Assembly: GCA_001421185.1 (NCBI GenBank)
Contig: LJKK01000009.1
Span: forward strand, 1 to 64,000
Origin: Methanomassiliicoccales archaeon RumEn M1
Lineage (GTDB): Archaea > Thermoplasmatota > Thermoplasmata > Methanomassiliicoccales > Methanomassiliicoccaceae
Length of the DNA: 64,000 nt
Reading direction: 5' to 3'
Part shown: in pieces, positions 48,979 through 63,134 of the stretch
How the letters are laid out: the number at the start of each line of letters is the position of its first letter
Position numbering within the stretch: position 1 is the first letter of the stretch
Position numbers and translations under genes: made by a program
The notes under the pieces: model-generated
Databases searched by the model: none
Told to the model about the DNA's origin: nothing
What the model saw: the letters and a program-made list of their open reading frames with translations, nothing else

Positions 48979-49082
48979 GCCGGGGTGGCTCAGCCTGGCG
49001 GAGCGACGGACTCATATGGCCCGGGCATCTTGCCCGGGTCCGAGAGATCCGTAGGTCATGGGTTCAAATCCCATTCCCGGCA
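48979..49082 (+). tRNA. tRNA-Met(CAT), elongator type, with 30-nt intron
   Basis: GCCGGGG pairs with TCCCGGC (one G-T), and the T arm is ATGGG/CCCAT around TTCAAAT. The anticodon stem ACGGA/TCCGT is split by an intron. The loop reads CTCATA, intron 49017-49046, then A38, so the anticodon is CAT (49013-49015). The intron lies at the usual 37/38 position. A long GC hairpin (GGCCCGGGC with GCCCGGGTCC) and 3-nt bulges TAT and AGA form the bulge-helix-bulge, with one A-C mismatch in the central helix. No CCA is encoded. Confidence 0.92.
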
Positions 49083-62843: not shown

Positions 62844-62962
62844 GGGCTCGTGGCTTAGCCTGGATATAGCACTGGCCTTCTATCCCGGATATCCGCGGAA
62901 GCAAGCCAGTGGCCTCGGGTTCGAAACTCCCTCTAGGAGCGAAATTCCCGACGAGCCCGCCA
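62844..62962 (+). tRNA. tRNA-Arg(TCT) with two introns, one in the T loop
   Basis: The acceptor GGGCTCG pairs with CGAGCCC, discriminator G and encoded CCA follow. The anticodon stem CTGGC/GCCAG holds loop CTTCTA, intron 62883-62903 (21 nt), A38; anticodon TCT at 62879-62881. The T stem TCGGG/CCCGA holds TTCGAA, a second intron 62926-62945 (20 nt), then T; spliced T loop TTCGAAT. Both introns form bulge-helix-bulge motifs: CTTC/GAAG central helix with TAT/CAA bulges, and TTCG/CGAA central helix with AAA/ATT bulges, then CTCC/GGAG. The second is at position 59/60, not the usual site. Confidence 0.93.
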
Positions 62963-63026: not shown

Positions 63027-63134
63027 ATGAAGAGAAGCTCACGCGCTTGGAAGAAGCGAGGCAATCAGAGATGGAAGTGGCGCAAGAAGAAGATGAGACG
63101 CAGAAAGCGCCAACAGAAGATGAGAAAGGCATAA
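63027..63134 (+). CDS. rpl41e: Probable ribosomal protein eL41
   Basis: A 35-residue, extremely basic peptide: it starts MKRSSRAWKK and continues WKWRKKKMRRRKRQ to end QKMRKA. The W-x-W-R-K-K-K-M-R-R core matches eL41, a single-helix ribosomal protein of about 25 residues in eukaryotes and some archaea. Here it has about ten extra N-terminal residues. GGGAG at 63015-63019 lies 7 bases before the ATG. It sits between tRNA-Arg and tRNA-Trp on the same strand and is short enough to be missed by gene finders. Confidence 0.65.
   Translation: MKRSSRAWKKRGNQRWKWRKKKMRRRKRQQKMRKA

Follow-up and report, generated by a model that had tools for sequence, protein, structure and literature searches.

Introns in the anticodon loop and T loop of tRNA-Arg(TCT) in the Methanomassiliicoccales, and the spread of T-loop introns in the Thermoplasmata

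Structure of the tRNA-Arg(TCT) gene

The window analysed here comprises 64,000 nucleotides of Methanomassiliicoccales archaeon RumEn M1 (assembly GCA_001421185.1, contig LJKK01000009.1, positions 1 to 64,000). As read directly from the letters, positions 62844-62962 of its plus strand hold a tRNA-Arg(TCT) gene with two introns, one of 21 nt at tRNA position 37/38 and one of 20 nt at position 59/60. Exon 1 (62844..62882; tRNA positions 1-37, with the anticodon TCT), delimited from the sequence, its orthologues and ARAGORN on the spliced form, is followed by the anticodon intron (62883..62903), delimited on the same kinds of evidence. Exon 2 (62904..62925) runs from position 38 to A59 and contains the 3′ half of the anticodon stem, the variable loop, the 5′ half of the T stem and TTCGAA. 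The T-loop intron (62926..62945) separates it from exon 3 (62946..62959; T60 to the discriminator G73), which is followed by an encoded 3′-terminal CCA (62960..62962). The limits of exons 2 and 3 were set from the sequence and its orthologues, those of the T-loop intron from these and from the unconstrained fold, and the CCA was read from the sequence.

Without both introns the gene reads GGGCTCGTGGCTTAGCCTGGATATAGCACTGGCCTTCTAAGCCAGTGGCCTCGGGTTCGAATCCCGACGAGCCCG. The first-pass annotation had proposed these two introns and a standard cloverleaf after their removal, and both the sequence and ARAGORN on the spliced form confirmed this. ARAGORN called tRNA-Arg(tct) once the T-loop intron was taken out, and no tRNA on the unspliced gene; the Rfam tRNA model scored the locus at 18.6 bits, under its cut-off of 29, and left a double-intron orthologue (L062) unreported even at E-values up to 1. 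An intact second copy, raised by the same annotation as evidence against splicing, was not found: among the genome matches of Rfam, ARAGORN and our search, in an assembly that is 93.7% complete, there was no second tRNA-Arg(TCT) gene. Thus 62844-62962 is the one tRNA-Arg(UCU) gene detected in the host, and an essential tRNA appears to be missing because ARAGORN and Rfam overlook it.

Downstream of the tRNA and outside it lies a short basic ORF (63027..63134, plus strand; 35 aa, MKRSSRAWKKRGNQRWKWRKKKMRRRKRQQKMRKA) that resembles ribosomal protein L41e; it had no Pfam and no NCBIfam match, and L41e is a resemblance only. In many genomes of the order an ORF of this kind directly follows tRNA-Arg(TCT), irrespective of which introns the tRNA has, and its start is the same in many relatives. 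The two genes possibly share one transcript.

BHB motifs of the two introns

Both introns form BHB motifs. In the anticodon intron (BHB 1) the central helix CTTC:GAAG (62877-62880 with 62898-62901) is flanked by the 3-nt bulges TA/T and CA/A (stroke at the intron boundary). In the T-loop intron (BHB 2) the central helix TTCG:CGAA (62920-62923 with 62940-62943) is flanked by the bulges AA/A (62924-62926) and AT/T (62944-62946), and the inner helix is CTCC:GGAG (62927-62930 with 62936-62939). BHB 2 is reproduced exactly by the unconstrained minimum-energy fold of the entire precursor (z -3.0). The 4-bp central helices and 3-nt bulges that had been ascribed to both introns are therefore present, with a reservation for BHB 1: its inner helix carries a C-C mismatch at the second pair in RumEn M1 (it is perfect in the relative L062), and the motif is absent from the unconstrained minimum-energy fold of the precursor.

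The motifs are conserved within the order. Each of the 38 distinct T-loop introns of tRNA-Arg(TCT) keeps a 4-bp central helix, G-U variants included, and the pairs of the inner helix alternate among CG, TA, TG and GC between orthologues, which are compensatory changes. A 4-bp central helix together with at least three inner pairs in strict register was found in 34 of these 38 T-loop introns and, among the distinct anticodon introns of the order, in 23 of 33; shuffled introns reached this in only 0.13-0.15% of trials (0.13% for the T-loop comparison). The BHB motifs of tRNA-Arg(TCT) exceed chance expectation.

Orthologues and intron history in the order

The gene, or parts of it, was found in nearly all of the 61 genomes searched, and the spliced sequence was called as a clean tRNA-Arg(tct) by ARAGORN in all 54 orthologous sequences tested. 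Orthologues throughout the Methanomassiliicoccales rule out a local oddity or an assembly artefact. They occur in four states, intronless, anticodon intron only, T-loop intron only and both introns, with exons common to all four. Among the orthologues read (families f and genera g in our own numbering), both introns are present in genera g1, g3 and g4 of f1, in g13, g16, g18, g20, g22 and g23 of f3, and in f4 and f6; only the anticodon intron is present in g6 of f3; only the T-loop intron in most f2 genera read and in f5; and no intron in g2 of f1 and in g17 and g5 of f2. The intron of the T loop is lost in several genera, and on the EndA tree, which is rough and has long branches, three changes are required for each of the two introns. 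The presence of the T-loop intron in every sampled family suggests that it was ancestral to the order and lost later. One orthologue comes from a record titled Atopobium sp. UBA1382 (L130); its tRNA-Arg is like that of gut Methanomassiliicoccales, and the contig seems to be mistitled.

Other intron-bearing tRNAs of the genome

Two further tRNA genes of RumEn M1 carry introns at unusual positions, and both give normal tRNAs once these are removed. The tRNA-Lys(TTT) gene (L244; G000:C39, about 2190-2330) has a D-loop intron at 20/21 and a T-loop intron at 59/60, and its motifs are slightly less regular: one extra unpaired C lies beside the central helix of the T-loop intron, and an internal loop takes the place of a clean 3-nt bulge in the D-loop intron. 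In its unspliced form it was overlooked by ARAGORN and was not among the Rfam matches. The tRNA-Thr(CGT) gene (L243; G000:C17:34908-34957 and flanks) has a D-loop intron; ARAGORN misread it as a tRNA-Arg(cct) whose intron lies at the anticodon. No similarity between the T-loop introns of tRNA-Arg and tRNA-Lys was evident by eye, and copying from one gene to the other was rejected. Four more matches to the looser pattern in this genome (L245-L248) lie outside tRNAs, as judged from their surroundings.

Introns at the canonical place were predicted in two tRNA-Met genes, tRNA-Tyr and tRNA-Ser(CGA), and read in tRNA-Arg(CCG). Within the window, the anticodon loop of tRNA-Met(CAT) (48979-49082) holds an intron of 30 nt.

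T-loop introns across the class

A T-loop intron had been expected to be surprising in the Thermoplasmatota, an expectation that did not hold. A tight pattern that includes a TCGGG/CCCGA T stem detected a T-loop intron in 70 of the 147 genomes of the order, and among 300 genomes of the class a looser pattern detected one in 169, these figures being pattern matches of which some were confirmed to lie within a tRNA. Because the central helix and the 3′ bulge are fixed in either pattern, the counts leave out other T-loop introns and are biased to canonical ones. The reversed-pattern control gave no match in the 147 genomes of the order and none in the 300 of the class, which rules out random matches as the source of the counts. 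Most of a set of 60 distinct matches to the looser pattern came from other orders; in this set no other register came near the strict one in frequency, and at least four strict-register inner pairs were present in 32 of the 60, against 1.9% of shuffles.

In named records, T-loop introns were found in the Methanomassiliicoccales, in tRNA-Asp(GTC), tRNA-Arg(CCG) and tRNA-Arg(TCT) of other Thermoplasmata, and in tRNA-Ala(TGC) of a few DPANN genomes; matches on bacterial contigs (e.g., L150, L162, L165 and L166) form no tRNAs. In f22, the family that contains Thermoplasma and has one genome with an EndA very similar to the Thermoplasma enzyme (PDB 2ohc), the class scan with the looser pattern gave no match. 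This may be why cultured models left T-loop introns unrevealed.

Splicing endonuclease and ligase

The EndA gene of RumEn M1 (L038:1465-2559, minus strand) encodes 364 aa with two PF01974 and two PF02778 matches, that is, two fused repeats in one chain, of which the C-terminal one has the catalytic Tyr, His and Lys. Its best solved relatives are 5x89, which has two EndA units per chain, and the Archaeoglobus fulgidus structures 1r0v and 2gjw. Judged from this domain arrangement, the enzyme is of the alpha′2 type (A. fulgidus-like). No second PF01974 locus, whether a separate beta subunit gene or a three-unit epsilon chain, was found in the 93.7%-complete genome; the single alpha′2-like gene, in which one frame holds both PF01974 repeats, led us to reject a hidden enzyme of the epsilon2 or (alpha-beta)2 type.

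The first-pass annotation had suggested checking the type of endonuclease, and the answer is a single alpha′2-type EndA without a CSL/ASL loop: there is no insertion after YYG, where the Aeropyrum pernix enzyme (3p1z_B) has 10 extra residues. In broad-specificity (alpha-beta)2 and epsilon2 endonucleases the CSL or ASL loop has a conserved Lys close to the active site. No insertion at the position of this loop was found in the alignable EndAs of the order or of those families of the class that have T-loop introns, a comparison that left out two f33 genomes in which the aligned stretch was empty (f33 has no T-loop matches). A long N-terminal extension of the f14 EndA, odd at first sight, looks like an open frame that lies upstream, where the DNA is GC-rich. 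The RtcB ligase, the presumed exon joiner, is present (L279; G000:C31:4203-6656); its gene seems to contain an intein, with PF01139 in two pieces within one open frame.

Proposed mechanism

Very probably, the alpha′2 EndA reads a near-canonical BHB wherever it is placed and so splices both introns of tRNA-Arg(TCT). The tRNA-Arg(UCU) transcript would carry two BHB introns, each of which the endonuclease, lacking CSL/ASL, would recognise as a local RNA shape at any tRNA position; at 37/38 as well as 59/60 it would cut the two bulges, and the exons would be joined by RtcB. We observed the gene structure, the conserved motif with its compensatory changes, the intron mosaic across the order, the enzyme type and the presence of RtcB, and we infer excision, the exact cut positions, the order of splicing and the independence of tRNA context. 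In mature tRNA, T54-G57 form the elbow. The T-loop BHB sequesters these residues, and recognition of this intron therefore cannot need a folded elbow, which, given the established structure of tRNA, would be no prerequisite for the T-loop cut.

The C-C mismatch in the inner helix of the anticodon intron of RumEn M1 counts against a strict-motif account. Since both introns of tRNA-Lys(TTT) contain extra unpaired nucleotides, the enzyme may also accept relaxed motifs, which would not be predicted for a strictly canonical reader. A relaxed specificity gained otherwise than by CSL/ASL, in place of strict motif recognition, could then be what permits D- and T-loop introns, and an inner helix of at least 4 bp in strict register in only 32 of the 60 T-loop introns, mostly from other orders, points the same way as tRNA-Lys(TTT). 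We regard this as rather unlikely, though worth weighing: the central helix of 4 bp in every T-loop intron of tRNA-Arg(TCT) in the order, with at least three strict-register inner pairs in 34 of 38, argues against it, as does the CSL/ASL site without an extra loop. Only tentatively can a wider reading be proposed, in which a loop-less alpha′2 enzyme removes D- and T-loop introns across the Thermoplasmata, even those with relaxed motifs like the two in tRNA-Lys(TTT), so that introns could spread to new tRNA positions without the CSL/ASL innovation.

A different kind of proposal concerns why such introns are kept. The 3′ ends of tRNA genes are the usual attachment sites of integrating elements, and the idea of a protective intron is a general one. 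The 3′ part of tRNA-Arg(TCT) is indeed divided by the T-loop intron, which may be kept for breaking such a site. As a selective reason this is compatible with local BHB recognition, but it seems improbable, considering that the downstream neighbour in the relatives read is a conserved short ORF and that the intron was lost in several genera. That the T-loop insert stays unspliced, the gene being a pseudogene or yielding a tRNA whose T loop is enlarged, is very improbable in view of the absence of any other tRNA-Arg(TCT) gene among those found in the assembly, the conservation of the insert's helices by compensatory change across genera, and the existence of exact intronless orthologues.

Comparison with known systems

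Introns at 59/60 and other non-canonical positions are known from the Crenarchaeota, especially the Thermoproteales, and from the Nanoarchaeota, whereas euryarchaeal species with alpha4 or alpha2 enzymes are said to carry one intron at the canonical position (PMC4090602). Korarchaeum has been presented as the only alpha2 archaeon with non-canonical introns, its enzyme having a loop, and tRNAs with multiple introns have been listed for two Euryarchaeota, Methanothermobacter and Methanopyrus (PMC4033280). In reviews, introns at unusual positions are linked to endonucleases that have a special loop, and euryarchaeal tRNAs are said to carry single introns at 37/38. The generalisation with which our analysis started, that euryarchaeal endonucleases are typically restricted to canonical sites, matches these two reviews and is contradicted, as a generalisation, by the present data: a large archaeal class appears to break the rule using a plain alpha′2 enzyme. 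The apparent paradox of a restricted enzyme largely dissolves, because published work confines the A. fulgidus alpha′2 enzyme to the canonical BHB (PMC12397907), and at 59/60 it is the position that is unusual while the motif is canonical. Archaeal endonucleases have been reported to recognise the BHB regardless of the mature tRNA domain, and the homodimeric enzyme of Ferroplasma, a member of the Thermoplasmata, cleaves minimal BHB substrates (PMC8707768).

For 217 archaeal genomes, tRNAscan-SE 2.0 reported 673 non-canonical introns (PMC8450103), and Ca. Methanohalarchaeum has pylT genes with one BHB intron or two (PMC9071458); some of the introns described here may therefore already be annotated in databases. 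The sole intron mentioned in a comparative genomics study of the Methanomassiliicoccales is a group II intron (PMC4153887). A literature search that covered few subscription journals found no paper reporting T-loop introns across a class with an alpha′2 enzyme. The kind of intron is known, and its class-wide occurrence with such an enzyme seems unreported in the literature searched.

Methanothermobacter, Methanopyrus and the pylT of Methanohalarchaeum resemble the present case in that a euryarchaeal tRNA gene can have more than one intron, although they concern other lineages and tRNAs, and a class-wide T-loop pattern was not described there. Korarchaeum cryptofilum likewise combines an alpha2-type enzyme with introns at unusual positions, but its enzyme is said to carry a specific loop that is absent from the aligned Thermoplasmata enzymes. 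The introns themselves resemble those of Crenarchaeota and Nanoarchaeota, which have the same 59/60 position and the same BHB motif, are short and sometimes occur with a 37/38 intron in one gene; those introns are described as typical of hosts with alpha2beta2 or epsilon2 enzymes, whereas RumEn M1 belongs to the Thermoplasmata and has an alpha′2-type enzyme without CSL/ASL. The comparison separates the question of which position is recognised in an intron from that of which motif.
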